Positions 4,358-59,942 of a stretch of DNA of 64,000 nt are shown one piece after another. Location of the stretch: contig NZ_JAFCLN010000018.1 of NCBI RefSeq assembly GCF_018129385.1, positions 1 through 64,000 of the forward strand, given 5' to 3'. The position numbers and the translations under genes are program-made. Position 1 is the first letter of the stretch; each line of letters begins with the position of its first letter. A model generated the notes under the pieces. That model ran no database searches, was not told the origin of the DNA, and saw nothing but the letters and a program-made list of their open reading frames with translations. The DNA is from Bradyrhizobium lablabi (GTDB lineage Bacteria > Pseudomonadota > Alphaproteobacteria > Rhizobiales > Xanthobacteraceae).

Positions 4358-4382
4358 GGACAGACCTTTCGTTTCTTGTTGG

Positions 4383-44182: not shown

Positions 44183-45718
44183 GTGACCAACGTCGTCAAA
44201 CCACACCCGGATGATGCCGAGCGAGACCTGCGCTTCCGCCTCGGAATCGAGCGTTCCGGGGTCGGGATGTGGGATCTCGATCTGCTGACCCGGGAAGTGA
44301 CGTGGTCGGCAAATGCCGGCGAACTATTCGGCATATCCGGCAAGCAGGAGATCGCCTACGAAATTTTCCTTTCGCTGCTCGATCCACTCGACCGTGAACG
44401 CGTGAGAGAAGCAATCGCCCGCACGGCGGAAACGGGCGCCGGGCTTGACACCACTTTCTTCATCGCCGCGCGGCCCAACTCGCGGCACTGGATTCGCCTG
44501 CGCGCGGGCCTGGTGCGGACCGACGACGGCCGGCCGCACCATCTCACCGGCATTGCCTTCGATATCGACGAGGAAAAGCAGGTCGAGGAGGCATTGCGCA
44601 TCCGCGAAACGCATCTGCGATCGATCCTGGAGACGATCCCCGATGCGATGATCGTCATCGACCGCCGCGGCGTCATGCAGTTTTTCAGCAACGCGGCTGA
44701 GCGGCAGTTCGGCTATGCGGCGGAAGAAGCGATCGGCCAGAACGTCAGCATCCTGATGCCCGAGCCGGATCGGACCCTTCACGATTCCTATCTTGAACGC
44801 TATCTCCTGAGCGGCGAACGGCGCATCATCGGCATCGGCCGCATCGTTACCGGCAAGCGCAAGGATGGCACCACTTTCCCGATGCATCTCTCGGTCGGCG
44901 AAATGCGCTCCGGTGGCGAACCCTATTTCACCGGTTTCGTGCGCGATCTGACGGAACAGCAGCAAACCCAGCACCGCCTCCAGGAACTGCAATCCGAGCT
45001 CGTGCACATATCCCGGCTCTCGGCAATGGGCGAGATGGCTTCGGCGCTGGCACACGAGTTGAATCAGCCCCTGGCGGCGATCAGCAACTACATGAAGGGT
45101 TCGCGCCGGTTGCTCTCGGCGAGCAATGACCCCAACCGCGAAAGAATCGAAAGCGCGATGGATCGCGCCGCAGAGCAGGCCCAGCGCGCCGGCCAGATCA
45201 TCCGCCGCCTGCGCGATTTCGTCGCGCGGGGGGAGTCGGAAAAGCGGATTGAAAGTATTGCCAAGCTGATCGAGGAATCCGGCGCACTTGGGCTCACCGG
45301 CGCGCGCGAACAGGGAGTCAACTTGCAGTTCGAACTCGACCGCAAACACGATCTGGTGCTTGTTGACCGCGTCCAGATTCAGCAGGTGCTGGTAAACTTG
45401 TTCCGTAACGCGCTGGAAGCCATGGCGAGTTCGCCGCAGCGCCGCCTCGTGGCTTCGACAAGAGTGGTCGCTGACGACATGGTCGAGATCTCGGTTGCCG
45501 ACACCGGTTCGGGCTTCGCCGAGGGCGTCGAGTCCAACCTGTTCCAGACCTTCTTCACCACCAAGGAAGCCGGCATGGGTGTCGGGCTTTCGATCAGCCG
45601 CTCCATCGTCGAGGCGCATGGCGGCAAGATGTGGGCTGAGAGCAATTCTTCCGGCGGCGCGACCTTCCGCTTTACGCTTCCCGGTGCACCCCATGAGAGC
45701 CTGACCGATGCCGACTAG
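44183..45718 (+). CDS. fixL: Oxygen sensor histidine kinase FixL
   Basis: 511 residues from GTG 44183. Two PAS domains (about 15-130 and 140-258). The second is the haem PAS with the ligand H200 in LHDSYLERY and R220 in [10 protein letters not shown], the same numbers as B. japonicum FixL. The kinase core has the phosphoacceptor H291 in [17 protein letters not shown] box [10 protein letters not shown] and G boxes [11 protein letters not shown] and [18 protein letters not shown]. There are no transmembrane segments, so it is a soluble FixL. Deoxy-haem activates autophosphorylation and transfer to FixJ, whose start overlaps the FixL stop by 11 bases. Confidence 0.97.
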
Positions 45719-46325
45719 AGGAAAAGTCTACGTTGTCGATGATGACGAGGCGATGCGTCACTCGCTGGAATTCTTGCTCGGCTCTGCCGATTTCGAGGTG
45801 ATGCTGTTCGATTCGGCCCAGGCTTTCCTCGGCGCGCTTTCCGGCCTCGAATTCGGCTGCGTGGTCTCGGACGTACGCATGCCCGGAATCGGCGGCATTG
45901 AAATGCTGCGCCGCTTGCAGGCGCAGCATTGCCGCTTCCCCGTCATCATCATGACCGGTCACGGCGACGTGCCGCTGGCGGTGGAAGCGATGAAACTTGG
46001 CGCTGTCGACTTCCTCGAAAAGCCGTTCGACGATGGTCTGTTGGTGTCCATGCTCGAAGGCGGCCTCAGGCGCGCCGAGACCGAGGCGAAGAATGAGGCA
46101 GTGACACACGAAATCGCGGGCCGCGTCGCCAGCCTGAGCCAACGCGAACGCCAGGTGATGGACGGGCTGGTGGCAGGCTTGTCGAACAAGGCCATTGCCC
46201 GCGAGTATGACATCAGCCCCCGCACCATCGAGGTCTATCGCGCCAATGTGATGACCAAGATGCAGGCGGGCAGCCTTTCCGAGCTGGTGCGGCTCGCCAT
46301 GCGGGCGGGCGCGCTGAAAGATTGA
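45708..46325 (+). CDS. fixJ: Response regulator FixJ
   Basis: 205 residues, the FixJ length. Receiver domain with the acidic pair in [10 protein letters not shown], phosphoacceptor D55 in [11 protein letters not shown] in [15 protein letters not shown] and K in FLEKPFDD. Then a linker and a LuxR-type HTH: LSQREREQVMDGL-type segment and [20 protein letters not shown]. Phosphorylated by FixL under low oxygen, it activates fixK. The fixK promoter here has a candidate FixJ site at 47243. Confidence 0.97.
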
Positions 46326-46335
46326 GGCAGATCAA
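46322..46335 (+). promoter_or_regulatory. FNR/FixK-type box overlapping the fixJ stop
   Basis: TTGAGGCAGATCAA matches at 9 of 10. It includes the fixJ TGA codon and lies with its centre 81 bases upstream of the receiver gene at 46410, suggesting FixK feedback on that gene. Confidence 0.6.
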
Positions 46336-46409
46336 GCCGCAATTCGCGAACTCTGTCATACAATCCGGATGCTTCGCGCCAATGAAACGCCATCTTGTGG
46401 GGGTCGGTG

Positions 46410-46799
46410 ATGCCCGCTTCGCCGGCCAAAGCCATGATTTATATTGTCGATGACGATCCCGACGTGCTCGGCTCGCTGCAATTCCTGCTCGAGACGGAAG
46501 GATTCGACGTGCGGACGTTCAGGAGTGGCGCAGCGCTTCTCAAGGAGGACGCCGAAAATGCCGATTGCCTGGTGATCGACTACAAGATGCCGAACATGAA
46601 TGGAATCGACCTGGCTGCGCGGCTGAGAAGCCGTGAGGTCCGGGTGCCCATCATCCTGATCACCGGCCAGATCGATCAAAATCTGCCGGACCGCGCCAGC
46701 GTCGCCGGCATCCGGCATGTGCTGCGCAAGCCTCACCTCGAGGAGAGCCTGCCCGGCCATATCAGAGGCGTGCTGGGGAATGTAAGCGCCGGCCTATAG
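46410..46799 (+). CDS. Receiver-only response regulator, FixJ-type
   Basis: 129 residues from ATG 46410 (TTG 46395 also possible). Complete receiver: IYIVDDDPDV, phosphoacceptor D57 in CLVIDYKMPNMNG, T in ILITGQIDQN and K in VLRKPHLEE. No output domain. It is closest in look to the FixJ receiver and sits between fixJ and fixK, where B. japonicum also has a receiver-only gene. It may be a phosphate sink or an anti-regulator that limits FixLJ signalling, analogous to FixT-type feedback; this is inference. Confidence 0.9.
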   Translation: MPASPAKAMIYIVDDDPDVLGSLQFLLETEGFDVRTFRSGAALLKEDAENADCLVIDYKMPNMNGIDLAARLRSREVRVPIILITGQIDQNLPDRASVAGIRHVLRKPHLEESLPGHIRGVLGNVSAGL

Positions 46800-46828
46800 C
46801 CTCCTCCAATACGATCAGCGGCTTCCGC

Positions 46829-46857
46829 CAAGGGCATCAGACCAAATCTCGGGGCCC
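46829..46857. repeat. Mini-repeat copy 1 (pair with 47262-47290)
   Basis: GGCATCAGACCAAATCTCGGG here and GGCATCGGACCAAATTTCGGG at 47265 are near identical (about 24 of 29 bases over the full stretch). Both lie in the intergenic sequences flanking the 70-residue gene. Function unknown. Confidence 0.5.
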
Positions 46858-46871
46858 ATTGGCCACAATCG

Positions 46872-47084
46872 CTATGACGGGAATTCCGTCTCGACGATCT
46901 GCACGCGGTCGGCGTGAAGCAGCCACTGCGCGACCTTCTCCCCTTCACAGAATCTGGCCTTGGCAAGTTCGGCCGCGTCTTCGCTGGATGGGGCGTCAAC
47001 CTCGATCGCGCTCTGGCAGATCTCAGCTTCATGGCCGTTTTCGCCCAACACTTTTTTCATGAATCGAGCAATGTAACGCGTCAT
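46872..47084 (-). CDS. Small conserved hypothetical protein, 70 residues
   Basis: From ATG 47084, preceded by GGAG at 7-8 bases; the longer start at 47126 lacks support. Sequence begins TRYIARFMKKVLGENGHEAE and continues with an acidic region (CQSAIEVDAPSSEDAAELA) and ends QWLLHADRVQIVETEFPS. The pattern of an N-terminal strand, a helix rich in Ala/Glu/Lys and a final strand is like small alpha-beta stress proteins, but I do not recognise a family. A FixK-type box lies 76 bases upstream. Confidence 0.65.
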   Translation of the reverse strand: MTRYIARFMKKVLGENGHEAEICQSAIEVDAPSSEDAAELAKARFCEGEKVAQWLLHADRVQIVETEFPS

Positions 47085-47153
47085 GTTTCGACTCCACGTC
47101 TGACAACTCAAGGAGGTTGGGATCAAGCTACCACGCGGAATCCCAACTCCGCC

Positions 47154-47167
47154 TTGATCGAGCTCAA
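47154..47167. promoter_or_regulatory. FNR/FixK-type box upstream of the 70-residue gene
   Basis: TTGATCGAGCTCAA matches at 9 of 10. Its centre is 76 bases from the start at 47084. It is 177 bases from fixK, too far for direct activation there but possibly used for autoregulation. Confidence 0.55.
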
Positions 47168-47242
47168 ACGGCTGCGGAATGCACCCGAGTATCAGAGAAT
47201 CTTTGGGAAATGCAGTGTCCCGGCCGCTGACAACTCCGGAAA

Positions 47243-47261
47243 GCTACGTAGGGGATTCCCC
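47243..47261 (+). promoter_or_regulatory. Candidate FixJ target in the fixK promoter
   Basis: CTACGTAGGGGATTCCCC contains the palindrome CTACGTAG and, overlapping, GGGGATTCCCC. It is 76-94 bases before the fixK start. Rhizobial FixJ sites are described as containing GTAMGTA-type cores, which TACGTAG approximates; this identification is from memory and tentative. Confidence 0.4.
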
Positions 47262-47290
47262 TTAAGGCATCGGACCAAATTTCGGGCTCC
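47262..47290. repeat. Mini-repeat copy 2
   Basis: GGCATCGGACCAAATTTCGGG at 47265-47285 pairs with the copy at 46829-46857. It lies between the candidate FixJ site and the fixK start. Confidence 0.5.
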
Positions 47291-47337
47291 CCGGTTCCGG
47301 ATTACAGCTTGGTCAACCCGGAACGTGGAGATGCCCA

Positions 47338-48030
47338 ATGCTCAGCCAGTCAATCAGCACTTCTGCCCCCGGCGGCCGCAAGGTTGCCCCCGCGCCCGCT
47401 GCAACCACCGACCACTTCGACGTGTTGACCGGTCATGCTGGCCTCGTCGCGTCCGAATTCATCTACCGCAAGGACGAAGAGATCTACGGCGAGGACGAGA
47501 CGGCCGAATATGTCTACCAGGTGGTCCGGGGCGCGGTGCGCACCTACAAGCTTCTTTCCGACGGCCGGCGCCAGATCGGCGCCTTCCATCTGGCAGGCGA
47601 CGTATTCGGCCTCGAAACCGGCATGAAGCATCGCCTCGCCGCTGAAGCCATCCTCGACACGACGGTCCGTCTGGTCAATCGCCGCAGCCTGGAGCAGGCC
47701 GCGCACAGCGATGTTCGCGTCGCCCGCGATCTCTGGTCCATCACGTCGGGCGAGCTGCGGCACGCTGAAAACCACATGCTGCTGCTCGGCCGCAAGACCG
47801 CGATGGAGCGCGTTGCGACGTTCTTGCTCGAAATGGACCGCCGTCTGGCAAGAGCGGGCATGATCGCCCTGCCGATGTGCCGTCGCGACATCGGCGACTA
47901 TCTCGGGCTCACATTGGAAACCGTGTCACGTTCGCTCTCCGAATTGCAGGCCAAGGGCGTGCTCGGGCTTTCCAGCGCACGGCAGATCCTGCTGCGCGAC
48001 CGGCACCAACTGGCGGTTCTCAACTGTTGA
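47338..48030 (+). CDS. fixK: Crp/Fnr-type regulator FixK (FixK2-like)
   Basis: 230 residues; B. japonicum FixK2 has 232. Sensor barrel IYGEDETAEYVYQVVRGAVR and GAFHLAGDVFGLETGMKHRL, without the FNR N-terminal cysteines. C-terminal HTH: ALPMCRRDIGDYLGLTLETV and SRSLSELQAKG, with the FNR-type recognition E and SR residues, which predicts a TTGAT half-site. C181 corresponds to the redox-sensitive C183 of FixK2. The C-terminus ends HQLAVLNC. It should be activated by FixJ and in turn activate the boxes found at 32167-47167. Confidence 0.95.
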   Translation: MLSQSISTSAPGGRKVAPAPAATTDHFDVLTGHAGLVASEFIYRKDEEIYGEDETAEYVYQVVRGAVRTYKLLSDGRRQIGAFHLAGDVFGLETGMKHRLAAEAILDTTVRLVNRRSLEQAAHSDVRVARDLWSITSGELRHAENHMLLLGRKTAMERVATFLLEMDRRLARAGMIALPMCRRDIGDYLGLTLETVSRSLSELQAKGVLGLSSARQILLRDRHQLAVLNC

Positions 48031-48659: not shown

Positions 48660-50735
48660 TTAAGTTGCCTCTGCTTTGAAATCGGCGAAGTATTCCGAGG
48701 TCGGCGCAACCCCCGTCAGCAGCAGATGCTCGCGCGCCCTCGTGCAGGCAACATAGAGCAGTCGCCGCTCCGTCTCGTAGATTTCGTCCAGCTCCGCTTC
48801 ATCCGCTGCATCCGAGACGCGTTCATCCAGCGGCAAGATGCCCTCATCGCAGGCCATGATGACAACTGCACGAAATTCCAGCCCCTTGGCGAGGCTCATT
48901 GGCGCGATCACCATTTCGGCTGCTCCCGCCAATCCATCGATGGCGGTTCGTGCGCGAGCGACAAGCTCAGGCATTCGCACAAACAGGCCTATCTCGTGAG
49001 GGGCGATGCCATCACCAAGCCAGACGTCAACCGCCTTCCGGACAGCTTCCGCCTCGGCCGTGACGTTCGGGAACGACTCCACTTCGGGCGGAGGTCCATC
49101 GAATACCGAGACAATGCCACGGCGTTCATCGTCCAACCCGTCGCTATCGCGCAAGACAGTCGGCAACAGCCGATCCGCGGCGCGGCGGATTTGTTGCGAG
49201 GTGCGATAGCAGACTTTCAGGGTATGAGATCGCCCGCGAACTTCGACACCGAGACTTGCCCATGAATAGGGATGCTGGAAAATGCGCTGGCCGATGTCGC
49301 CGGACAGGAACAGTCCGTTCACCTTGGCCGGTGCCAGCGCTGCGAAAAAACGCAACTCGGCCGGCGCCAGGTCTTGTGCTTCGTCGATGACCACATGGTC
49401 GAATGGCTTTGAAGGCTTCCCCTCAAGAGCCTTCGCAAGGTCGCTGAAAACACTGGCCCACGTCGTGTAGCGCTCCGCCATCAGCGCGGCGCGAACTGCC
49501 TCGAATACCGGCCACAGGCGCCCACGTTGATTAGGACCAAGCCGGCTCTTGCGACCCATCCGCTCGACGGTGGAATAGGCATCGAGCGACGAGATGCCCC
49601 AGGCATCAACGACGTTGGTCCACTCGGACAACAGAAAGCGTTCCGAAAAACCCTTAAGGCTGGCCGCCGCAGCGGCAGCGCGCAGCCGCTCGCGCAGAAC
49701 AGTGTCCGATGCAATGCGGGGGCGTACGCCGTGTTCGAGTTGGTACATCTGTTCGGCGATTCCTCGGAACGACGCGGTCGTTATCCGGGGAACGACGCCA
49801 CCCGTCTCGGGCGCGAGGACAAGGAGTTTTTTCGCCAAGGCATCAGCCAACGGCTGCGAAAAGCTTGCGAGCAATACTTTCGCGGCAGGATTTTCGCGAG
49901 CGAGTCGCACGGCGCGGTGCAGGGCGACAATGGTCTTGCCGGTTCCAGCCGATCCCGCCACGCGGGCCGGACCTGCGAAGGAACGCTCGACCAGCGCGCG
50001 TTGCGAGGGATGCAGGAAGACGCCCCACTTTTCCCACGGAAAGGCCAGCGCCTGCTCCAGTTCTTCCTGATCGGCGATCGGACGGATTCGGCGCAGTGCA
50101 TCGGGATGGGTGAAGGGCGTTGAAGCCGCAGGCACGGGAGCCGGCGCCGGCAGCTTGCCGGTTGCGGCAAACTCGAGCAGCGCTTCGGAAGCCTCAGCTG
50201 GAAGGTGAGCCGCCAGTGCAAAGAAGCCGTCTTCCGTTGCGGCGCGAACATCGGCCAGCCAGTCGGCGGGCACACCGATCGACAGCAGCGCATTATCATC
50301 GAGTGATGAAAACAACAGCGTCGACGCTTCTGTTTCCTTCGCCTCCTCCTTCCCGGGTTCGGGGAACACAAAGTCGAATGTCGCCGGCGGTGCGACCTCC
50401 TCCACGCGCTCGCGGATTTCGACAATCTGGACCGCGCCGGTTCGGGGATGCGCCTCGATCCGCCGCCGTTCCGCCCAGGCATAAGCCGCGTCGTGGTGGT
50501 CGACATAGGCGACGAGAAGACTTTCCTTCGTCTTGTGTACGATCAGGCGGATGTCGCGATTGACCCTCGCCGACCAGAAGTTCGGATCCTTGCTATTATC
50601 GATCCGATGCAACTGGAGACCGGGACCGCTGCGATCCATCTGCAGGTCAAACACACTCGCCTTCACGGCCTTCTGGTCAACGCCGGAGAGGCGGTTGAAC
50701 GATGCGGTGAAGGTTTCGGCGATCAGGAAGTTCAT
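48660..50735 (-). CDS. Superfamily 1 (UvrD-like) helicase with RelE/ParE-like N-terminal domain
   Basis: 691 residues. Residues 1-95 look like a RelE/ParE-type toxin fold: TASFNRLSGVDQKAVKASVF, LQLHRIDNSKDPNFWSARVN, DIRLIVHKTKESLLVAYVDH and HDAAYAWAE. A linker to about 240 follows, then an SF1 helicase: Walker A GSAGTGKT 261-268, DEAQD 451-455, and the C-terminal UvrD block LLYVACTRAREHLLLTG 659-675. It is the last gene of the type III restriction operon. Start overlaps the previous stop (ATGA). Likely a DNA processing partner of the restriction system. The toxin-like domain may bind nucleic acid rather than cleave mRNA, as no antitoxin gene is adjacent. Confidence 0.87.
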   Translation of the reverse strand: MNFLIAETFTASFNRLSGVDQKAVKASVFDLQMDRSGPGLQLHRIDNSKDPNFWSARVNRDIRLIVHKTKESLLVAYVDHHDAAYAWAERRRIEAHPRTGAVQIVEIRERVEEVAPPATFDFVFPEPGKEEAKETEASTLLFSSLDDNALLSIGVPADWLADVRAATEDGFFALAAHLPAEASEALLEFAATGKLPAPAPVPAASTPFTHPDALRRIRPIADQEELEQALAFPWEKWGVFLHPSQRALVERSFAGPARVAGSAGTGKTIVALHRAVRLARENPAAKVLLASFSQPLADALAKKLLVLAPETGGVVPRITTASFRGIAEQMYQLEHGVRPRIASDTVLRERLRAAAAAASLKGFSERFLLSEWTNVVDAWGISSLDAYSTVERMGRKSRLGPNQRGRLWPVFEAVRAALMAERYTTWASVFSDLAKALEGKPSKPFDHVVIDEAQDLAPAELRFFAALAPAKVNGLFLSGDIGQRIFQHPYSWASLGVEVRGRSHTLKVCYRTSQQIRRAADRLLPTVLRDSDGLDDERRGIVSVFDGPPPEVESFPNVTAEAEAVRKAVDVWLGDGIAPHEIGLFVRMPELVARARTAIDGLAGAAEMVIAPMSLAKGLEFRAVVIMACDEGILPLDERVSDAADEAELDEIYETERRLLYVACTRAREHLLLTGVAPTSEYFADFKAEAT

Positions 50736-51505
50736 GATCGGCCAAGCGCGAATCTTACGCCCGCTTGTGCCAATAGCCCCAAACGACCCCGTTCGTGGCC
50801 CTCACCGCTCAACCAATTTGGTAGAAGCGCCCCCTGCGAGGCGAAGTGCTCAGTATGGACGACCACCACTTTGTCGTCGGTATAGGTAACCTCATTGAGG
50901 GGTCGCCACGATCCCGGGCGCGCCTTGGCAAAAGCTTGACGGCATGCGGTGACATAATTCCCCGCCGTGCCGAGCCCAAGCATGACAATCAATTTTGTCG
51001 GGTTCGGCAAGTCGCCAAGAAATTGAGTGGAGCAGTTTGTGAGAACTTTCCTGCCAAAATCACGCGCGATGAACTTGTCCAGCATGCCGCCGCCCGTGCC
51101 CTTCCACTGCTTGTCCGGCACCGTTTCCTTCGCATCCCGCCGCTCGACAGTGCATCGGATTAGGGACCCGAAGTGAAACCGACCATCGCGATCAGCTATC
51201 GCCTGATCCACGAGACGACTGTCAGGAGCCGTCAATAATCCAACGTGATGAAGGATTTTCGCCAGGTTCGTGCGGCCACCCCTGAAGGCAATCTGATCAT
51301 GCGGCTGGCTGGACAGTGCACCGGCCTGGGTTGGTCCCTTGGAAAAGCCCATCACAACGAATTCTGGCCTAGGATTTCCCCAAGCCAGCGGATTGTTGGT
51401 TATCCGCCAGCCATCTTCCTCGGTTCGTGTTCGATCAAACGCATAGGCTTGGCCTCGGTGACAAAGAGCGCATTGAACGCGGCCATGCGCAGGAAGGTCA
51501 GTCAT
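50732..51505 (-). CDS. Restriction-operon protein of unknown function, possibly uracil-DNA-glycosylase-like
   Basis: 257 residues. A CxxC motif near the N-terminus (VQCALCHRGQAYAF) could bind zinc. Then come PEFVVMGFSKGPTQAGALSS, FGSLIRCTVERR, KLIVMLGLGTAGNYV and VVVVHTEHFASQGALLPNWL. The order of a glycine-rich first loop, a central strand and a late histidine resembles the uracil-DNA glycosylase superfamily, but the match is weak and I would not assign activity. It is tightly coupled within the operon: 3 bases after the methyltransferase start region's stop and overlapping the helicase by 4 bases. Confidence 0.6.
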   Translation of the reverse strand: MTDLPAHGRVQCALCHRGQAYAFDRTRTEEDGWRITNNPLAWGNPRPEFVVMGFSKGPTQAGALSSQPHDQIAFRGGRTNLAKILHHVGLLTAPDSRLVDQAIADRDGRFHFGSLIRCTVERRDAKETVPDKQWKGTGGGMLDKFIARDFGRKVLTNCSTQFLGDLPNPTKLIVMLGLGTAGNYVTACRQAFAKARPGSWRPLNEVTYTDDKVVVVHTEHFASQGALLPNWLSGEGHERGRLGLLAQAGVRFALGRS

Positions 51506-51508
51506 GCA

Positions 51509-54466
51509 TCACACCCCAAATACCTTCATCACCTCGTCGCCGAAGTGGTTGATCACCTTCACCGCGATGCGGCGGTTCGCTGGCCGCGGGAACGGGCGCG
51601 AGGTGTCGGAATAGAGCGTCGCCCAAGCGTCCTCGTCGATCTCGGCCTGCAGCGCGGTCTTCAGGCTCTTGTAGGGATCGTTGGCGCCGAGGAAATAGGC
51701 GTGACGGACGAAAAAACTTTCCTCGTTATAGTCGGTGTCGATGAACCAAGCGGCGATGCCCTTGGTGTCATTGGAGCGGATATCGCCGGTGTTGGGATCG
51801 AACACGTCGACGCCGTTGACCTTGACCCTGATCTCGGGACCGCCCTCGTCGAGCACTTCCACGTCGGGCTCGCCGAACACGACGAACATGTTGCCGCGAC
51901 CGGTGTTCTTCAACTCCTTCGACATATGCATGTCGGGGTTAATGCGCGCCTTCAGGATTTTGAGGCTACCCAAACTGTCTAGCTCCGAGGAATGGGCGTC
52001 AAAATTGAAGGCGCAGGCGATCAGCACGTCGAAGCGGCAATCGGCGGCCTCGCGCGCCGCAGCAACAATATCCTGCCGTCCGACGGTACCGTACTCGGGA
52101 CCGATCAGGATCGCGGCTCGGCGTTCCGGGCCGCTCTCGCCTTCGATGAACGTCCCACTGGCACCAATGAACTTTTTGCCTGGCCACGGCGTAAGGCTTT
52201 CGAAGGTAATGCGGCCTCCCTTCTCTTGCTGCTTGACACCTTCGGACTTGAGATAGTCTATCACGATAGCCGCAAAGTCCTGCCCAGCCAGATCCGCATC
52301 GGCTGCAGAGCGCTTGCCCTCCGCGGCGTCGAGGAGGTCGATCAGTTCCTCTTCGCTTGCGGGCAATGCACGGTGTGGCGAGAGGCTCTCCACCGTGAAA
52401 GGACCCGCAACACGGACGCGGGCATTGTCAGTGTAGGGCTTGTCGTAGAGGTATTCGACATCGGCGCGCGCGGCGATGCTGGCGTCGATCTCGCGTTGGC
52501 GGGTGATTCGTGCTTCCCACCATTTGGCGTGCGGCTCGGCAGCCGAGGCCGGCGTACCGGTGGGAAGGTCGCGCGGGACCTGCCACTCTTCCCAATTACT
52601 CTTGGTCGCCTTATTGATCGCTGCGCGCAGCGGCTCGAGTACCGCCTGCCACTTCTCCCAGATGTCGTCGATTAGTGGGTTGTTGGCGATCGATTTTAGC
52701 GTGATATGCGGCACTCGCTCGTAGACGAAACCCTGCCGGATATCGTTGTGTGTCGGTGTATCTGCCGGCGCCCGCAGAGCAAGTGCTCCTTCCTTCTCAC
52801 GACCCTCGCGACTATCTGCAAGCAGATACCATGGATAACGAGCTGCAATAACGCGCGTACGCGCTAATGTCAGCGCAACACGACTCGTATCAACGGTAAT
52901 CCAGCGTCGACCCCATTGCTCAGCCACATAAGCGGTAGTGCCTGACCCGCAAGTGGGATCAAGCACGAGGTCTCCAGGATCGGTAGCCATTAGGACGCAG
53001 CGTTCAATGATCTTGGGCGACGTCTCCACTACGTATCGCTTCTGATCAAGATAGCCAGCACGCGTAGTGTCAGCCCAGATATTGTTGATGGGTTCAATTG
53101 AAAAATCAGAAAGGTATCTCACGTACCGAATACTGTTCGTGGATGCATCAATTCGCTCAGCGAGTGCCAGCCTATGCATGCCCTGCAAATGAGTCTTCCA
53201 ATGTGAGTTTCGCGGTGGCTGGTACTGTCGACCTTGAAACGTAAACGGTAGCGACCCGTCTGGCGTCGCACCTTGAGAAGAGATATTGTCCTGATAGTAC
53301 GGATCGATAGGTTCTCCAGCGGCAAGGCGGCGCGCAACTTCGTCTTTGCCCAAATCGACCTTTTGTCCGTCTTGCAAGCGCGCCCTTGAATGTGACCAGC
53401 CTCCGCCCCCCCGTAGTTCGCGCATTACGTAGGGTTGTCGATATTTCACCCTTTCGGCTGACTTTGCATACCAAAGTACTAGATCAAAAACGCGCCCGAG
53501 GCCGATGGTAGACTGACCGCCGGTTGTGACGAAGGGCACCATGTTTAGGAAGTTCGTGTCCCCAAACACCTCGTCCATTACCGCCCGCACGCGATGAACG
53601 TTTTCGTCGCCGATCTGAACGAAAATTGACCCGCTATCAGTCAATAGGTCGCGCATAACACTAAAGCGATCATGCAAATAGGAAAGATAGCTGTGGACGC
53701 CATCCTTCCATGTGTCACGAAACGCCCTGACCTGCTCCGGCTCGCGGCTGATATCAAACTGCTTGCCATCCTTGACATCACGCGATTGCGTCGATACCTG
53801 CCAATTCGAATTGAACTTGATGCCATAGGGCGGATCGAAATAGATGCACTGCACCTTGCCGCGCAGGCTTTCACGCTCGGCAAGGCTCGCCATCACCTGC
53901 AGCGAATCGCCCAAGATCATGCGGTTCGACCAGTGCTGGTCGTGCTGGTAGAACTCGGCGCGCTGGTCCGGCTCGATTCCGTTGAAGTCGGCGAACAGGT
54001 CGGGCGCATCGCTCTGCGCCTCACGCTTCTCCGCAGTCCGCCGCTTCAAATCGTCGATGATCGCCTTGGGGTGAATCTTTTCCTGGATGTAGAGCGGCGG
54101 CACGTTGACGACGAGGTCGGACCAGTCCTGCCTGTCTTTGCCGCGCCAGACCAGTTGCGCGTCCGACAGCGTCAAGGTGCCGGTCTCGGCCAGTTTCTTC
54201 ATCTGTTCGTCGGTGATGGTGATCTTCGCGCCGTTCCAGATCAGTTCCGGCGCGCGCGGCTCTTCGGCTGTGCGCTTCGCCCCCTCAGCCAGCGGCCGGC
54301 TGCGCGGATAATGCTTGGGAGGCATCGGTGAGGCATCCTCGTCGCGCCGGAAGAAGCTCTCCATCTCCGCGGTCGGAATATTGCGCCGGCTCGCGGCGTC
54401 ATGCTTGAGCGCGTCGACCTGTTTGGAAGATTTCGGCGACTTGGGTGATTTCGGCGAACGAGCCAT
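51509..54466 (-). CDS. mod: Type III restriction-modification DNA methyltransferase (Mod)
   Basis: 985 residues. Motif IV CIYFDPPYGIKFNSNW (DPPY) lies around residue 228 and motif I LVLDPTCGSGTTAYVAEQWG around 520, the order of beta-class N6-adenine or N4-cytosine methyltransferases. The target-recognition part between them (about 300-490) has lower GC than the rest. The C-terminal 350 residues are longer than in classical Mod proteins (about 650) and include FGEPDVEVLDEGGPEIRVKV and AWFIDTDYNEESFFVRHAYF. The N-terminus carries SPKSPKSPKSSK. Start overlaps the Res stop (TGATG). Provides specificity and self-protection. Confidence 0.92.
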   Translation of the reverse strand: MARSPKSPKSPKSSKQVDALKHDAASRRNIPTAEMESFFRRDEDASPMPPKHYPRSRPLAEGAKRTAEEPRAPELIWNGAKITITDEQMKKLAETGTLTLSDAQLVWRGKDRQDWSDLVVNVPPLYIQEKIHPKAIIDDLKRRTAEKREAQSDAPDLFADFNGIEPDQRAEFYQHDQHWSNRMILGDSLQVMASLAERESLRGKVQCIYFDPPYGIKFNSNWQVSTQSRDVKDGKQFDISREPEQVRAFRDTWKDGVHSYLSYLHDRFSVMRDLLTDSGSIFVQIGDENVHRVRAVMDEVFGDTNFLNMVPFVTTGGQSTIGLGRVFDLVLWYAKSAERVKYRQPYVMRELRGGGGWSHSRARLQDGQKVDLGKDEVARRLAAGEPIDPYYQDNISSQGATPDGSLPFTFQGRQYQPPRNSHWKTHLQGMHRLALAERIDASTNSIRYVRYLSDFSIEPINNIWADTTRAGYLDQKRYVVETSPKIIERCVLMATDPGDLVLDPTCGSGTTAYVAEQWGRRWITVDTSRVALTLARTRVIAARYPWYLLADSREGREKEGALALRAPADTPTHNDIRQGFVYERVPHITLKSIANNPLIDDIWEKWQAVLEPLRAAINKATKSNWEEWQVPRDLPTGTPASAAEPHAKWWEARITRQREIDASIAARADVEYLYDKPYTDNARVRVAGPFTVESLSPHRALPASEEELIDLLDAAEGKRSAADADLAGQDFAAIVIDYLKSEGVKQQEKGGRITFESLTPWPGKKFIGASGTFIEGESGPERRAAILIGPEYGTVGRQDIVAAAREAADCRFDVLIACAFNFDAHSSELDSLGSLKILKARINPDMHMSKELKNTGRGNMFVVFGEPDVEVLDEGGPEIRVKVNGVDVFDPNTGDIRSNDTKGIAAWFIDTDYNEESFFVRHAYFLGANDPYKSLKTALQAEIDEDAWATLYSDTSRPFPRPANRRIAVKVINHFGDEVMKVFGV

Positions 54467-57400
54467 CAGGCGGGGACTTTCTTCATCAAACGATCAACCA
54501 GTTTGGCGAAATCTTCGTCCATCGCCGCCCAGTCACGAAATTCCTCGAATCGCCAGCGCCCAAAGCCACCAAGCGCATTGACGCCCGGCACCCACAGGTC
54601 GCGCGTGGTCTGCGCCTTGGCCTTGTCGCTCTCGTCCCTGTCACCCTTGACTTCGAGGATCAGGTTCAGCGGTTCATCGCCGCCGATATCGAGCCGGACG
54701 AGGAAATCGGGAACGTAGCGGCGCATCACACCGGCGTCGAGGTAGGGGATGTCGAACCCCATCGCCTGGTTCTTGGCATAGGCCAGCACACGCGGATGGT
54801 TTTCGAGGGTCAGGGCAAGCTGCTGTTCCCAACTGCTGTCTAGCACGACATGGCTGATCTGACACTTCGGCGGCTGCGCGCCGGTTTTCCACACCGGCTT
54901 CGAGGTGATGAAATTGACGAAACGCGTCGAGCCCTTCGGATTGTAGGGATCGAGCACTGCCAGCAGTTTCCCCTCGCTGCCGCGCGTCAGCGCGATGTCG
55001 ATCTTCTCCGCAGCGCGCTTGAGCTGGTCCTGATACAAGATGGCGCCGATCGGGACACCCCTCGTGACCAGATAGCCTTCGTCCAGCCATCTCCGAGCGA
55101 TGCGCTGGATCTGCGGAAACAGATGCTGCCTGGGAATATTCTCGTCATCGCGAAAGTTCGCATAGAGCAGATACTTGGCAAGGTTGAAGCTGATCTCGGA
55201 AGGGCGCAACCGCTCCAGCACCTGCGGCGTGATGGTGACGCCGGCGCCGACGATACCTTCCATCACCACCGCAGTCGGGCCGATGTCGAGAGGCGTGATT
55301 TCCAGCCGGCTGTCCGTGGTGAATTTGGCTTCCAGCCTGTCGGACGGCAGGTCGCGGCGATAGCCGCTGACTCGCGGGAAGACGATCTCGAACTCAGCCC
55401 TCTCCCTGATGGCGTGGACGCGGGTGACCGGCTTTGGCGCAACCGGCTTCGTCTTCTGCGGTGAGGATGCGAAGTCGAACGGAATGCCCATGATGTCGGC
55501 ATACTCGACGTCGAACAAGCCGGTGTTCGGGTTGAGGTCGTAGGACTGGCGGCGCAGGCCACGGCCAACCACCTGTTCGCACAACAATTGGGTGCCGAAC
55601 GCGCGAACGCCGAGAATATGGGTCACGGTGTTGGTGTCCCAACCCTCGGTCAGCATCGACACCGAGACGACGCAGCGGATTTGCTCGCCGAGCCGGCCCG
55701 GGCGACCGACGGTGTTCATGACCTCGCGCAGGAGATCGCTCTCGCTGGTTTCACCGTGCACGCTGCCGGCACCCTCGCGCGCCGCAAGCTCACGCTTGAA
55801 CTGCTCGATCTCGGGGCCCGCGGCGTCGCGGAAACCCTTGTCGAGGGCATCGCCGGACTCAAGCTGGCGCGAATCGATCAGCAACGTCCGCGGGCGAGGA
55901 AGGCGCCGTCCCTGGTCGTCATAGTTCCGGAACCGTTCGAGATGTCCGGCATGGAAGGCAGCGCGTTCGCCCTCCTCCGCATCGCCGCGCTCGAAGCCGG
56001 CGATCCATTCGAACACCAGCTTCGAGATCGCCGTGTTCTGGCACACGACGATGAACACCGGTGGCACTCCGATGCCAGCGCGTTCCCAGCGATCGAACTC
56101 GCCTTCATAGTGGCTGTAGAGCGCGTTGAGCGCCGTGCGCAGCATGTTAGGGAGATCGAAGGGACTCAGCTTGTTGGCGGCCGCTGCGGTCTTCGGCAAA
56201 TCCTTACCGATCTGCTTCCACAGATGACGATAGACGACCGTATCGGTCTGCACGAGATTGTCGGTGACTGGGATGCGGGGCAGCTTGACGATGCCGCTCT
56301 CGATCGCGTCCATCAGGCTGAAGTCGGACACCACCCAGGGGAACAGGGTGCCTTCTTCATAACCCGAGCCGCGCAGGAAGAAAGGCGTTGCGGAGAGATC
56401 ATAGACTGCGCGCAAGCCCTTCGACAGTTTGCGGCCAAGCGCCTCGATGCCGTTGATCCAGAGCCGGGCGGCCTCCTCGTTTTCGGCAGCCTCCTTCTTG
56501 TCTTCTCCCGTCAGGGGACCTTCGACATCAGCGCCGACCTTGTGCCGATAGCAATGATGCGCCTCATCGTTGAGGACGTTGACGCGGTCGTAGTTCAGCA
56601 GCTTGCCGCAGGCCCGCGCCAGCATCTCGGCGTCGGTTTCCGTGGTCTTGATCGGCTCGGGCGCGTTGCCTTGCAGGAAACTGCGCGCGACTGCGGGCAA
56701 GGACATGGTCTCGCGGTGCTGAAACGAATGGTAGTTGGTGATCACGATTTCGGCGCGGCGGATTTCCGGCAGCATTTCCGGCGGGACGATTTCGCGGGTC
56801 TCATAATAGTTGTCCGGCTCGCTGGGAAGCAGCACGCGAAGCCGGTCGCGGATGGTGATGCCGGGGGTGACGATCAGGAAAGCGCGCGAAAAGTCCTTCG
56901 AGTCCTTGCGGGCCGCGTTCACCGCCTGCCAGGCGATCAGCATCGCCATCACGGTGGTCTTGCCGCTGCCGGTCGCCATCTTCATGGCGAGGCGGAACAA
57001 CTCGGGGTTGGCTTCCGCGTTGGCTTTTTCGAGTTGATCCAGCAGTCCCTTGGTCGCGGCGCGTTTCGGCGCAACCTCGGTCAGCCAGATGATGGTTTCG
57101 ACCGCCTCGATCTGACAGAAGAAGGGTTGCTGGGCGCTGAATTTGTGGTGCCGCCAATGTTCGAGCAGCCGCTGTGTCGCGCCGGTGACGCCCCAGTCGG
57201 CAGGATTGCGCAAGGCGCGCCAGCTTTCGAGATAGCCGCGAATTTCGTTGATGAGGGCGTGGTCGGTATAGGTCTCAAGATCGAGCGAAGCCTGATTGGC
57301 CGACGCCTTCTTCCTCGAGGCCGGAACAGGCACGATCAGGCGCGACGGGCGACGCCCGCGCCTCGGCTCGCCTTCAATCGGCTGGCCGTTGTCGTCGAGA

Positions 57401-57534
57401 GGATGGTGCAGTTCCGGTGCCCGATAGGGCGAGTTCAAAATCGGCCGTTCGTAAAAGCTGCTCAATTGTGACGTCCGCCCCGTAATTTTCTTCGCATGAA
57501 TTAATGCGATGCAATGCTTCGAGGCAACCGTCAT
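54466..57534 (-). CDS. res: Type III restriction endonuclease subunit (Res)
   Basis: 1022 residues. SF2 helicase core: Walker A MATGSGKTT at 186-194, DEAHH in NDEAHHCYRHKVGAD, SATPFFLRG, and motif VI-like GRGLRRQSYD. The C-terminus has a PD-(D/E)xK nuclease pattern: RRYVPDFLVRLDIGGDEP and LILEVKGDRDESDKAKAQ. With Mod it would cut foreign DNA lacking the modification, tracking by ATP hydrolysis. First gene of the operon and nearest to tRNA-Gln, whose 3' end points at it 73 bases away. The first 15 residues may not be translated; a later start is possible. Confidence 0.93.
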   Translation of the reverse strand: MTVASKHCIALIHAKKITGRTSQLSSFYERPILNSPYRAPELHHPLDDNGQPIEGEPRRGRRPSRLIVPVPASRKKASANQASLDLETYTDHALINEIRGYLESWRALRNPADWGVTGATQRLLEHWRHHKFSAQQPFFCQIEAVETIIWLTEVAPKRAATKGLLDQLEKANAEANPELFRLAMKMATGSGKTTVMAMLIAWQAVNAARKDSKDFSRAFLIVTPGITIRDRLRVLLPSEPDNYYETREIVPPEMLPEIRRAEIVITNYHSFQHRETMSLPAVARSFLQGNAPEPIKTTETDAEMLARACGKLLNYDRVNVLNDEAHHCYRHKVGADVEGPLTGEDKKEAAENEEAARLWINGIEALGRKLSKGLRAVYDLSATPFFLRGSGYEEGTLFPWVVSDFSLMDAIESGIVKLPRIPVTDNLVQTDTVVYRHLWKQIGKDLPKTAAAANKLSPFDLPNMLRTALNALYSHYEGEFDRWERAGIGVPPVFIVVCQNTAISKLVFEWIAGFERGDAEEGERAAFHAGHLERFRNYDDQGRRLPRPRTLLIDSRQLESGDALDKGFRDAAGPEIEQFKRELAAREGAGSVHGETSESDLLREVMNTVGRPGRLGEQIRCVVSVSMLTEGWDTNTVTHILGVRAFGTQLLCEQVVGRGLRRQSYDLNPNTGLFDVEYADIMGIPFDFASSPQKTKPVAPKPVTRVHAIRERAEFEIVFPRVSGYRRDLPSDRLEAKFTTDSRLEITPLDIGPTAVVMEGIVGAGVTITPQVLERLRPSEISFNLAKYLLYANFRDDENIPRQHLFPQIQRIARRWLDEGYLVTRGVPIGAILYQDQLKRAAEKIDIALTRGSEGKLLAVLDPYNPKGSTRFVNFITSKPVWKTGAQPPKCQISHVVLDSSWEQQLALTLENHPRVLAYAKNQAMGFDIPYLDAGVMRRYVPDFLVRLDIGGDEPLNLILEVKGDRDESDKAKAQTTRDLWVPGVNALGGFGRWRFEEFRDWAAMDEDFAKLVDRLMKKVPA

Positions 57535-57606: not shown

Positions 57607-57681
57607 TGGCTGGGGCGGGAGGGATCGAACCTCCGAATGGCGGAATCAAAATCCGCTGCCTTACCGCTTGGCTACGCCCCA
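57607..57681 (-). tRNA. trnQ: tRNA-Gln (anticodon TTG)
   Basis: On the minus strand a 75-nt tRNA begins TGGGGCGTAGCCAAGCGG and ends with a T arm GGTTCGATCC, the pairing CGCCCCA, G discriminator and an encoded CCA. The acceptor stem pairs TGGGGCG with CGCCCCA. The anticodon loop is TTTTGAT, giving anticodon TTG (bases 57647-57649) for CAA glutamine codons. Its 3' end points towards the restriction operon, a common integration position, but no duplicated tRNA end was found on the other side. Confidence 0.95.
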
Positions 57682-57780
57682 ACTGGCGACGGATGCGGCG
57701 GCGAGTTGGCTCGCTGGATGCGCCGGTCCGGCAACGCACGGTCTATAGAGAGCGGTGGGGCATTTCAACCCGCCTTCGCC

Positions 57781-57861
57781 CGAAGGCGGGCTTCGGCGCG
57801 GCAAGCCCGGCTTCGCCAACTGCCATCGTCCGAAAGGCGGGCTTCGGCGAGGCAGGCCCGG
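57781..57861. repeat. Two-copy palindromic repeat (50-base spacing)
   Basis: CGAAGGCGGGCTTCGGCG followed by CGGCAAGCCCGG (57781-57810) and nearly the same at 57831-57861. Each unit can fold through GCCCG/CGGGC. Part of the gene-free 482-base gap between the tRNA and the acyl-CoA dehydrogenase. Confidence 0.6.
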
Positions 57862-57907
57862 TCCGGACGGCTAGCCTTTATATTGGGTGTACCTTGTGGC
57901 CATCCTT

Positions 57908-57984
57908 CGAGACGCCCGCCTTTCGGCGGGCTCCTCAGGATGAGGTCCGAGACGCCCGCCTTCGGCGGGATCCTCAGGATGAGG
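57908..57984. repeat. Two tandem copies of a 38-base GC-rich element
   Basis: CGAGACGCCCGCC, TTCGGCGGG and TCCTCAGGATGAGG occur at 57908-57945 and again at 57948-57984. Each unit contains two hairpins, CCCGCC/GGCGGG and CCTCA/TGAGG. From memory this is a typical rhizobial intergenic repeat. Confidence 0.65.
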
Positions 57985-58163
57985 CCGGCGTGTGTTGCGG
58001 CGGCGTTGCAGGTTCCGGAATGAGGCCTTCCCGGGCCGGCCGCGCGGAAAGCCGGGGCATTTGGCGCCGTCCTCGTCTATGCTGCCGGCAGGCGCCCATT
58101 GAGACGCCTGCGGTTTCGTGATACGGCAGCGTATCACCCCCTTTTCCGAGCCGAGTACCCGCC

Positions 58164-59942
58164 ATGACCTATCGCGCACCGATCAACGACATCCTGCTGG
58201 CGCTCAATCATGGGGCGGGGCTCGGGAAAGCGGTGGCGGCCGGGCATTATGGGGATTTCGACGCCGACATCACGGCGGCGGTGCTGGAGGAAGCCGGCAA
58301 GTTCGCCGGCGAGGTGCTGGCGCCGCTCAATCGGGTCGGGGACGAGCACGGCATCAAGCTCGCGGACAAACAAGTGACGACAGCGCCGGGCTGGCCGGAT
58401 GCCTACAGGCAATGGGCGGCGGCGGGGTGGAACGCGGTGTCGGGGCCGGAAGCGTTCGGCGGGCAAGGCCTGCCGCTGGCGATCAACGCCGCCTGCACCG
58501 AAATCTGGAGCGCGTCGAACATCGCCTTCGGCCTCTGCCCGCTGCTGACGCTCTCGGCGATCGAGGCGCTCGATGCGCATGGCAGCGAGGAGCTGAAGAA
58601 GATCTATCTGGCAAAGCTGGTGTCGGGCGAATGGACCGGCACCATGCAGCTCACCGAGCCCAATGCCGGCTCCGATGTCGGCGCGCTGCGCAGCCGCGCC
58701 GAGCGCGCACCCGACGGGACGTATCGCCTGAAGGGCACAAAAATCTTCATCACCTATGGCGACCACGACATGACCGACAATATCGTGCATTTCGTGCTGG
58801 CCCGCCTGCCCGATGCGCCCGCGGGCACGCGCGGCATCTCGCTGTTCCTGGTGCCGAAATTCCTGGTGAATGGCGACGGCTCGCTCGGCGCGCGCAACGA
58901 CATCTATGCCTCTGGCGTCGAGCACAAGCTCGGCATGCATGCCTCGCCTACCTGCACGATGACGATGGGCGATGCCGGCGGCGCGATCGGCTACCTGATC
59001 GGCGAAGAAAATAAAGGCATGGCCTGCATGTTCACGATGATGAACCAGGCGCGCCTCGCCGTCGGCCTCGAAGGCGTCGGCATCGCCGACCGCGCCTATC
59101 AGCAGGCGCTGGCCTTTGCGCAGGAGCGCAAACAAGGCCGCGCGGTGGGGAAAAAGGGCGACGGGCTCGATCCGATCATCGTGCATCCCGACGTCAAGCG
59201 CATGCTGATGCAGATGCGCAGCATGACGGCGGCGGCGCGCTCGATCTGCTACGCCACCGCGGTGGCGCTGGATGTGGCCGCGCGCGCTGGGGATGCCAAG
59301 GTGCGGGCGGATGCGGCGGCGCGCGGCGCGCTGCTGACGCCGATCGCAAAGGCGTTTTCCACCGATATCGGCAATAAAGTCACCTATCTCGGCGTGCAGG
59401 TGCATGGCGGCATGGGGTTCATCGAGGAGACCGGCGCCGCGCAGCATTATCGCGACGCGCGCATCACCACGATCTATGAGGGCACCAACGGCATCCAGTC
59501 GATCGATCTCGTGACGCGAAAACTCGCGGCGAATGGCGGGGAATCGGTGTGGGCGCTGCTGGAAGAGCTCTCCGCTATCGTCAAGCAGGTGGAGGCCTCG
59601 AACGATCCGGCGTTCGGCACCACCGGCGCCAAGCTGCGCGAGGCGCTGGGTTCGCTCGAGCGGAGCAGCAAATGGCTTTTGGAGCGGATGGCTTCCGCCC
59701 CCAATGACGCGCTCGCGGGAGCAACGCCCTATTTGCGGCTGTTCGGCGCAACGCTCGGCGGCTGCATGCTGGCCGGCGAAGCGCTGGCGGCGAAGAGCCA
59801 TGGCGAAGCCGAGCCGGGACGCTATGTGGCGGTGGCAAGATTCTTTGCGGAGAACGTTTCGGTGCAGGCCGGCTCGCTGGAGAAGACGGTGATGGATAGC
59901 GCCGACGCGGTGAACGGCGCGGATGCCGTGCTGCTGGGTTGA
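58164..59942 (+). CDS. Acyl-CoA dehydrogenase, long form with C-terminal extension
   Basis: 592 residues, the size of FadE-like enzymes with an extra C-terminal domain. It starts with YRAPINDILLALNHGAGLGK, followed by TGTMQLTEPNAGSDVGALRS, GTKIFITYGDHDMTDNIVHF, QVHGGMGFIEETGAAQHYRD and the catalytic region TTIYEGTNGIQSIDLV. The last 150 residues form the additional helical domain found in this subgroup. It is a FAD enzyme of fatty or branched acyl-CoA oxidation. It stands alone on this strand, without an obvious operon. Confidence 0.92.
   Translation: MTYRAPINDILLALNHGAGLGKAVAAGHYGDFDADITAAVLEEAGKFAGEVLAPLNRVGDEHGIKLADKQVTTAPGWPDAYRQWAAAGWNAVSGPEAFGGQGLPLAINAACTEIWSASNIAFGLCPLLTLSAIEALDAHGSEELKKIYLAKLVSGEWTGTMQLTEPNAGSDVGALRSRAERAPDGTYRLKGTKIFITYGDHDMTDNIVHFVLARLPDAPAGTRGISLFLVPKFLVNGDGSLGARNDIYASGVEHKLGMHASPTCTMTMGDAGGAIGYLIGEENKGMACMFTMMNQARLAVGLEGVGIADRAYQQALAFAQERKQGRAVGKKGDGLDPIIVHPDVKRMLMQMRSMTAAARSICYATAVALDVAARAGDAKVRADAAARGALLTPIAKAFSTDIGNKVTYLGVQVHGGMGFIEETGAAQHYRDARITTIYEGTNGIQSIDLVTRKLAANGGESVWALLEELSAIVKQVEASNDPAFGTTGAKLREALGSLERSSKWLLERMASAPNDALAGATPYLRLFGATLGGCMLAGEALAAKSHGEAEPGRYVAVARFFAENVSVQAGSLEKTVMDSADAVNGADAVLLG

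Follow-up and report, generated by a model that had tools for sequence, protein, structure and literature searches.

A type III-like restriction operon of Bradyrhizobium lablabi with a conserved helicase, apparent cargo slots and a putative DNA glycosylase

Defence genes embedded in restriction-modification (R-M) operons have a described precedent in TgvAB, a modification-dependent system that is reported to lie within a type I R-M operon and is read there as complementary defence (PMC11411939). BREX loci with auxiliary nucleases have likewise been reported (PMC12839542). A second line of precedent comes from enzymes related to uracil-DNA glycosylases (UDGs). Brig1 and Brig3 are reported to excise modified cytosines and to leave abasic sites, and Brig2 to act on phages with modified thymine (PMC11078745; PMC13160076). 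The locus considered here may bring the two lines together. It occupies positions 48660..57534, on the minus strand, of a 64,000-nucleotide stretch of the 7.24 Mb genome of Bradyrhizobium lablabi (contig NZ_JAFCLN010000018.1, positions 1 to 64,000; hereafter the window) and encodes a restriction endonuclease (Res), a DNA methyltransferase (Mod), a 257-residue protein designated UDGL and a RelE-UvrD helicase.

Res, Mod and the helicase are a conserved three-gene core in most sampled loci of the window's Mod family. The intervals between Res and Mod (slot A) and between Mod and the helicase (slot B) appear to be cargo slots that are near-empty or filled by unrelated genes, and UDGL is slot B cargo. 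The favoured reading, held at a probability of about 55%, is that the operon consists of a type III-like R-M core with one exchangeable cargo gene, and that UDGL provides a Brig-like base-excision defence against modified phage DNA. The host locus differs from those of TgvAB and BREX in being a type III-like three-gene core with two apparent separate slots, and the cargo differs in having a predicted glycosylase fold. The components are thus of known kinds, and neither the two-slot arrangement nor the UDG-fold cargo was found in the literature searched; among the papers listed by open-access searches there was none on a Res-Mod-helicase core with slots or on UDGL.

The Res-Mod-helicase core

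The four open reading frames (ORFs) all lie on the minus strand. Res and Mod overlap by 1 base, Mod and UDGL are separated by 3 bases, and UDGL and the helicase overlap by 4 bases; the genes are probably co-transcribed. The first-pass annotation of this DNA had described the spacing and the identities of the genes correctly, and had proposed from the spacing that all four act as one system.

Res (54466..57534; 1022 residues) combines a superfamily 2 (SF2) helicase motor with a C-terminal PD-(D/E)XK nuclease. It is a full-length member of the BPTD_3080 family (NCBIfam NF046055; 1234.5 bits, cut-off 800), a name that five annotated plasmid relatives also bear. This name covers Res alone, so the helicase partnership and the slots fall outside its definition, and a literature search found no paper using it. 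The Walker A motif MATGSGKT (residues 186-193; 56956..56979) retains its G-x-G-K-T positions in 45/45 sequences, and in the nuclease motif VPDFLVRL...LILEVKG (residues 941-964; 54643..54714) the PD and E are kept in 45/45 and the K in 44/45. Overall, 44-45 of the 45 sequences, the window's among them, retain the motif residues (GxGKT, DEAH, PD, ExK). In Pfam, PF04851 scored above its cut-off and RE_endonuc just under (22.1 bits, cut-off 23.4). A search of solved chains with the Res sequence gave no match at E up to 0.1.

Mod (51509..54466; 985 residues) is a type III-like N6-adenine/N4-cytosine methyltransferase, assigned by PF01555, by the PADLOC MTase_III profile PDLC03632 (1194.7 bits, with profile positions 5-982 of 983 matched) and by phmmer matches to the solved type III-type Mod chains 6k0w, 4zcf (EcoP15I) and 7dsu. 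Its catalytic motif FDPPYG (residues 210-215; 53822..53839) retains DPPYG in 46/46 sequences, and each position of the S-adenosylmethionine (SAM)-binding motif DPTCGSGTT (residues 503-511; 52934..52960) is kept in 44-46 of 46, the same range as for the catalytic motif residues as a whole, window included.

The pair therefore has the composition of a type III system, a beta-class Mod with DPPY and SAM-binding motifs and a Res with an SF2 helicase and a PD-(D/E)XK nuclease, as in R-M systems of the EcoP15I type, and its Mod is related to that of EcoP15I. Restriction by type III systems requires Mod and two inverted asymmetric sites, and one strand is methylated. In contrast to these systems, Res matches the classical type III models weakly (21-28 bits), res precedes mod, a RelE-UvrD helicase is added, and Mod has 985 residues against 644 in the EcoP15I chain. 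The long Mod C-terminus had been taken as a hint of a distinct subtype. A length of 985 residues is not out of the ordinary for the family, whose PADLOC profile itself spans 983 positions.

The helicase (48660..50735; 691 residues) is a RelE-fold domain fused to a UvrD-family superfamily 1 helicase, as indicated by a Pfam UvrD match and a structure model. The N-terminal domain (residues 1-90; 50466..50735) is predicted to have a RelE/ParE fold. In fold searches YafQ, YoeB, RelE, ParE and HigB made up nearly all of the listed matches, with Cami1 and Txp40 also present; Z-scores reached 10.4, for YafQ (root-mean-square deviation (rmsd) 2.6 over 85 residues), and the best Foldseek match had an E-value of 1.6e-4. 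The model of the N-terminal part is weak overall (predicted local distance difference test (pLDDT) 67.0, predicted template modelling score (pTM) 0.41) and fair over residues 1-90, where block means are 69-89. H80, H81, D82, A84, Y85 and W87 of this domain are kept in 36/36 sequences. Among Pfam toxin profiles HigB-like_toxin reached 20.1 bits, under its cut-off of 27.

The conservation of the gene order was assessed from Mod outward. With a cut-off of E up to 1e-100 and the own genome included in each count, Mod homologues occur in 3/100 relatives, 23/385 class members and 23/398 phylum members. Apart from the own genome, 42 distinct genomes of the class and phylum sets had a Mod match, and 39 neighbourhoods, chosen by Mod alone, were taken from them; G405, G640, G644 and a second contig of G105, all of them short pieces, were not included. 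Mapping of the four proteins by tblastn placed Res, Mod and the helicase in the same order and orientation in 23 of the 39. Two more have Mod-Res with the helicase on the opposite strand and one has Mod and the helicase without Res, and the helicase is present in 26 of the 39 in all. Eight neighbourhoods have Res-Mod without a helicase, among them one that stops at a contig end (L063) and one in which only 45% of Mod is matched (L065). Four others (L045, L046, L047 and L064) belong to a distant Mod branch (35-40%) with Mod-Res order and no helicase, and in L038 Mod stands alone at a contig start. UDGL was found by tblastn in none of the 39.

The proposed conservation of the four-gene order thus holds for the helicase and fails for the 257-residue gene. 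A fixed four-gene unit was rejected because UDGL is absent from 39/39 Mod-selected neighbourhoods. The association of the helicase with this Res/Mod family is genuine, and the earlier suggestion that the helicase marks a distinct subtype is therefore reasonable.

The helicase is also encoded apart from Mod. On a Qipengyuania plasmid (L070:9001-11052) it lies beside a RecB-like nuclease and a DUF4011 protein, and on a Meiothermus plasmid (L071:9001-10953) it lies near brxL; it is therefore also used outside the Res-Mod core.

Apparent cargo slots within the core

Among the 23 complete Mod-selected cores, the Res/Mod junction (slot A) measures at least 300 nt in 18, and the Mod/helicase junction (slot B) reaches that length in 17; four cores have less than 300 nt at either junction. 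In the window slot A is empty (54466..54466). In a compact core on a Pseudomonas avellanae plasmid, the annotated genes are separated by 1 base at one junction and overlap by 1 base at the other. A scan of 33 complete cores for same-strand slot ORFs of at least 100 residues returned 73, which fall into 45 BLAST clusters; slot A accounts for 19 of these and slot B for 26, with no cluster common to both. The separate repertoires are only suggestive because related loci share contents by descent.

A Pfam scan was made of 40 slot proteins hand-picked from 78 listed, some of them from cores without the helicase. Slot A yielded GmrSD_N, PDDEXK_4, FRG, HepT-like, DUF2971, REase-ARP, Bro-N, NYN, PIN, NOV_C and DUF3368. 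Slot B yielded SNF2/helicase, AAA beside Peptidase_S8, AAA_16, AAA_15/21 and HNH_2, with a LigT-like match slightly under its cut-off. For 18 of the 40 proteins no Pfam family was found at E 0.01.

The contents differ even between close relatives. On a tree of concatenated core proteins (35 rows, without distant or incomplete loci; another core tree had 37), the window clusters with L005, L006, L025, L027, L066 and L067 (support 100/100). Within this seven-core clade slot A has either no content or a GmrSD-type protein (L025 and L027, so called because they share a BLAST cluster with a Pfam-matched protein of L007), a 307-residue protein or a NOV_C protein. Slot B is occupied by UDGL, by a 209-, 314- or 119-residue protein, or by a pair of 275 and 122 residues. 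The tree needs at least three changes for the presence of UDGL and at least four for GmrSD. This pattern suggests that bacteria swap extra antiviral genes in and out of a fixed operon.

Several slot proteins and their surroundings stand out in their own right. A slot B family represented by L025:6875-7501 (minus strand) and L007:13319-14032 (plus strand) has conserved HG and C motifs that appear caspase/CHAT-like by eye; the L025 member has no Pfam family. Slot B of L052, L059, L062 and L067 encodes small proteins starting with GKGGYxGGST. The L066 core, on a Rhizobium leguminosarum plasmid, is flanked by annotated Shedu and DarT-family genes (4013-5170 and 17062-18225) and so lies in a defence island.

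UDGL, a predicted UDG-fold protein

UDGL (50732..51505; 257 residues), the slot B cargo of the window and a proposed DNA glycosylase, is predicted to have a uracil-DNA-glycosylase fold. The AlphaFold2 model, built from an alignment of eight sequences, has a pLDDT of 87.5 and a pTM of 0.88. A Foldseek search of the PDB with this model gave 36 matches at E up to 0.001, and the 50 matches displayed are UdgX, TDG, family-4-type UDG and MUG. VIA-align ranked UdgX first (Z 10.6, rmsd 3.8 over 180 residues), and each of the 50 entries listed is a member of the UDG superfamily (UDG/TDG/MUG/SMUG/UNG). Sequence comparisons see little of this likeness. The window protein has no Pfam, NCBIfam or PADLOC match and no sequence relative in the PDB, where single matches at E 1.2 and 0.41 were unrelated; among 16 UDGL members scanned, one matched the Pfam UDG family PF03167 (E 1.1e-4).

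Four cysteines, C12, C15, C118 and C158, are invariant in 14/14 UDGL members. Their C-x2-C...C...C layout resembles that of the iron-sulphur (Fe-S) cluster of family-4 UDGs. In its predicted fold UDGL is like UDGs of families 4 and 5, UdgX, TDG and MUG. One family-4 enzyme, 4ZBY, is reported to have an Fe-S cluster (PMC11078745).

In contrast, the catalytic motifs differ. At the place of motif 1, where family 4 UDGs and UdgX have GE[AQ]PG and the UDGs of relatives carry GEAPG or GEQPG, UDGL has GFSKG (residues 53-57; 51335..51349), a pairing that depends on a weak profile alignment (probability 0.4%). G53, S55, K56 and G57 are invariant in 14/14 members, and where the catalytic acid would be expected, 13/14 have Phe and L019 has Val. 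Motif 2, HTEHFAS (residues 217-223; 50837..50857), was paired by eye with the likely place of the UDG motif HPS/HPA, and distant members (one of two L013 copies, L015 and L019) do have HPS there. Also paired by eye, residue 74 is Phe or Tyr in 14/14, at the likely place of the base-stacking aromatic residue, and residue 114 is Ser in 14/14, at the likely place of the Asn that reads uracil. The altered motif 1 and the Ser at 114 argue against ordinary uracil repair.

UDGL is rare, with homologues in 4/41 relatives and 3/385 class members, own genome counted in both. Only the window's own genome among the 385 of the class has both UDGL and Mod, which speaks against the proposal that the four genes act as one system. 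UDGL does lie between Mod and the helicase in three further loci, L005 (Gluconobacter aidae), L006 (Acetobacter garciniae) and L007 (a metagenome-assembled genome of Arenimonas), in the same four-gene order in the first two and with insertions in the third. These three are uninformative on frequency because they were found by searching for UDGL itself. Twelve other UDGL loci, taken with wider flanks (L010-L021, some cut by record ends), have no Res or helicase of the window's family.

Elsewhere UDGL also adjoins unrelated defence systems, a further point against a single four-gene system. The PADLOC scan of UDGL loci covered the window, L010, L017 and L018. In L018, from the same genus, UDGL comes immediately after a cluster made up of a DrmD-like helicase, the Mod and Res of another type III system and a GmrSD protein; this Mod is distant from that of the window (23% identity). 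In L017, also from the same genus, UDGL is divergent from zorA, zorD lies further on and a GmrSD gene lies downstream. On a Methylorubrum megaplasmid (L010) UDGL lies beside a PDC-S26 candidate. GmrSD genes share a locus with UDGL in L007, L017 and L018, and GmrSD is reported to be a family that restricts modified DNA (PMC11411939). On Roseomonas plasmids UDGL follows three other genes, and in L014 IS21 genes have cut into it. A UDGL relative is present on five viral contigs, of which the L074 copy adjoins a phage integrase and the L075 copy looks interrupted; a search of 50,697 phage records gave no match. UDGL is thus found inside the operon, absent from most cores, independent elsewhere and partly beside other defence systems, as would be expected of embedded cargo.

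On a Cereibacter plasmid (L016:9335-10258) a UDGL relative looks broken; the gene that precedes it is annotated as a uracil-DNA glycosylase, and the matched stretch itself is unannotated.

Proposed function and alternative explanations

In the favoured reading Mod would methylate the host DNA, and Res together with Mod would cut unmethylated invading DNA. Unwinding or processing of the cut DNA would fall to the helicase, whose RelE-fold domain may contribute RNA cleavage or regulation. UDGL would cover the DNA that restriction cannot cut, by flipping out and excising a modified base in phage DNA, and the abasic sites left behind would block replication, as reported for Brig1 and Brig3. The division of labour would presumably be restriction and modification by Res and Mod, DNA processing by the helicase and base excision by UDGL. 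Of the roles once proposed for the extra gene, a second layer of defence remains the likeliest. UDGL in a type III-like operon would then follow the same logic as TgvAB, also an extra defence embedded within an R-M operon (PMC11411939), with a glycosylase in its place.

The likeness to Brig1 and Brig3 is that these too are UDG-related proteins, reported from defence islands where they adjoin other defence genes (PMC11078745; PMC13160076). However, UDGL sits inside an R-M operon, and it is likened to the Brig proteins by their description and not by sequence. The core of Brig3 has itself been likened to AAG, and weak homology to UDGs is also reported (PMC13160076). No entry named Brig appeared among the matches listed by the UDGL fold searches, which is not evidence of absence. 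UDG is named in a figure legend of predicted systems in a 2026 DefensePredictor paper and may or may not stand for the UDGL family there (PMC13092281).

A broader and more tentative proposal is that the core serves generally as a platform for exchangeable immune effectors, its two slots each drawing on a separate repertoire, and that UDGL represents a new class of UDG-fold effectors, marked by GFSKG and four cysteines, that excise a modified phage base, so that base-excision immunity would be matched to restriction in one operon. The analysis turns the apparent four-gene oddity into a testable rule, an R-M family with two fixed places for cargo, and slot contents read across a large number of genomes would supply candidate antiphage proteins, many of them outside any Pfam family. 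UDGL becomes a further candidate among the few UDG-type defence proteins. A second testable question is whether one operon can supply a glycosylase to counter the phage base modifications that defeat restriction.

Several observations weigh against the favoured reading. The helicase link is not universal, as 13/39 Mod loci lack it, and on plasmids it is looser: of the 19 helicase records (E up to 1e-60), only 10 recur in a listing of 30 out of 37 Mod records (E up to 1e-100). The slot B UDGLs group together on a tree (support 90/97), which means that shared ancestry may account for part of the pattern. The case for cargo switching comes from gene content and not from junction sequences, and some slot ORFs may be spurious because the slots were scanned mechanically in GC-rich DNA. 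As to the fold, the Foldseek TM-scores (template modelling scores) are modest (0.3-0.5), 15 of the 16 UDGL members scanned, including the window protein, have no Pfam UDG match, and a profile comparison (hhalign) of UDGL with the family-4/UdgX UDGs of relatives was very weak, at a probability of 0.4%. Finally, the catalytic acid of motif 1 is replaced (GEAPG to GFSKG), and UDGL might therefore bind but not cut.

The last of these points makes a non-catalytic reader the main rival. UDGL would then be a UDG-fold protein without glycosylase activity, which recognises a modified base or an abasic site in the DNA of an invader and recruits or triggers the helicase or the nuclease. The near-constant Phe at the place of the catalytic acid, followed by Ser-Lys in 14/14 members, fits this well, and the retained fold and four cysteines would suit DNA binding. 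Nevertheless, the Brig enzymes are, as far as reported, examples of UDG-related defence proteins that are active despite altered pockets, the motif mapping depends on a weak alignment, and UDGL occurs without a window-type helicase; on balance such a reader is possible but doubtful.

The slots could also be neutral insertion points, with cargo genes as passengers gained by recombination at an expressed and selected operon and without a functional link to the R-M core. Contents as diverse as 45 families in 73 ORFs, together with the near-empty forms, are what this would produce. It is nonetheless unlikely given that several cargo proteins are nucleases or carry domains known from defence, and that no family is common to both slots, a comparison uncorrected for the relatedness of the loci.

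If UDGL and the helicase were obligate subunits for the processing of cut DNA within a dedicated four-gene type III subtype, this could explain the tight coupling by overlaps of 1 and 4 bases and the identical gene order in L005 and L006 (with insertions in L007). Such a subtype is quite improbable in view of the 39 Mod-selected loci without UDGL, of the close cores L025, L027, L066 and L067 with other slot B genes, and of the 12 UDGL loci without the family's Res or helicase, including L018 with its distant Mod. Least probable is that UDGL is an ordinary repair glycosylase for uracil or deaminated bases that is present in a defence locus by chance: the predicted UDG fold would allow it, but plain uracil repair is unlikely when UDGL does not keep motif 1 of the uracil-DNA glycosylases and is rare, with several copies beside defence systems or on viral contigs, and when PF03167 has four other matches in the genome.

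Genomic surroundings of the operon

A tRNA-Gln gene (57607..57681, minus strand) adjoins the operon with its 3' end toward it. The first 21 bases of this 3' end have no second copy within the window, and no integrase was noticed among the window ORFs when these were read by eye, so a tRNA-integrated island is only suspected. In the relatives G002, G005 and G009, a 48-50 bp copy of the tRNA-Gln 3' end is present about 7-9 kb downstream, of the kind that integration at a tRNA gene leaves behind.

The operon lies between a fix-type kinase/regulator cluster (44183-48030, named by eye) and a tRNA-Gln/acyl-CoA dehydrogenase block (57607-59942), which are 9.6 kb apart in the window. In G002, G005, G008, G014 and G017 the same two blocks share a contig, with about 84-345 kb between them, and in G015 the distance is about 5 Mb; in other genomes they are on different contigs, or fix has no match at 1e-100. 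The stretch between them is a size-variable region. Beyond the tRNA gene, a GC-rich element of 50-60 bp (57892-57951) adjoins short direct repeats at 57783-57984. At least nine other copies of this element, at 98%, are present in the same genome, and many are found in relatives.

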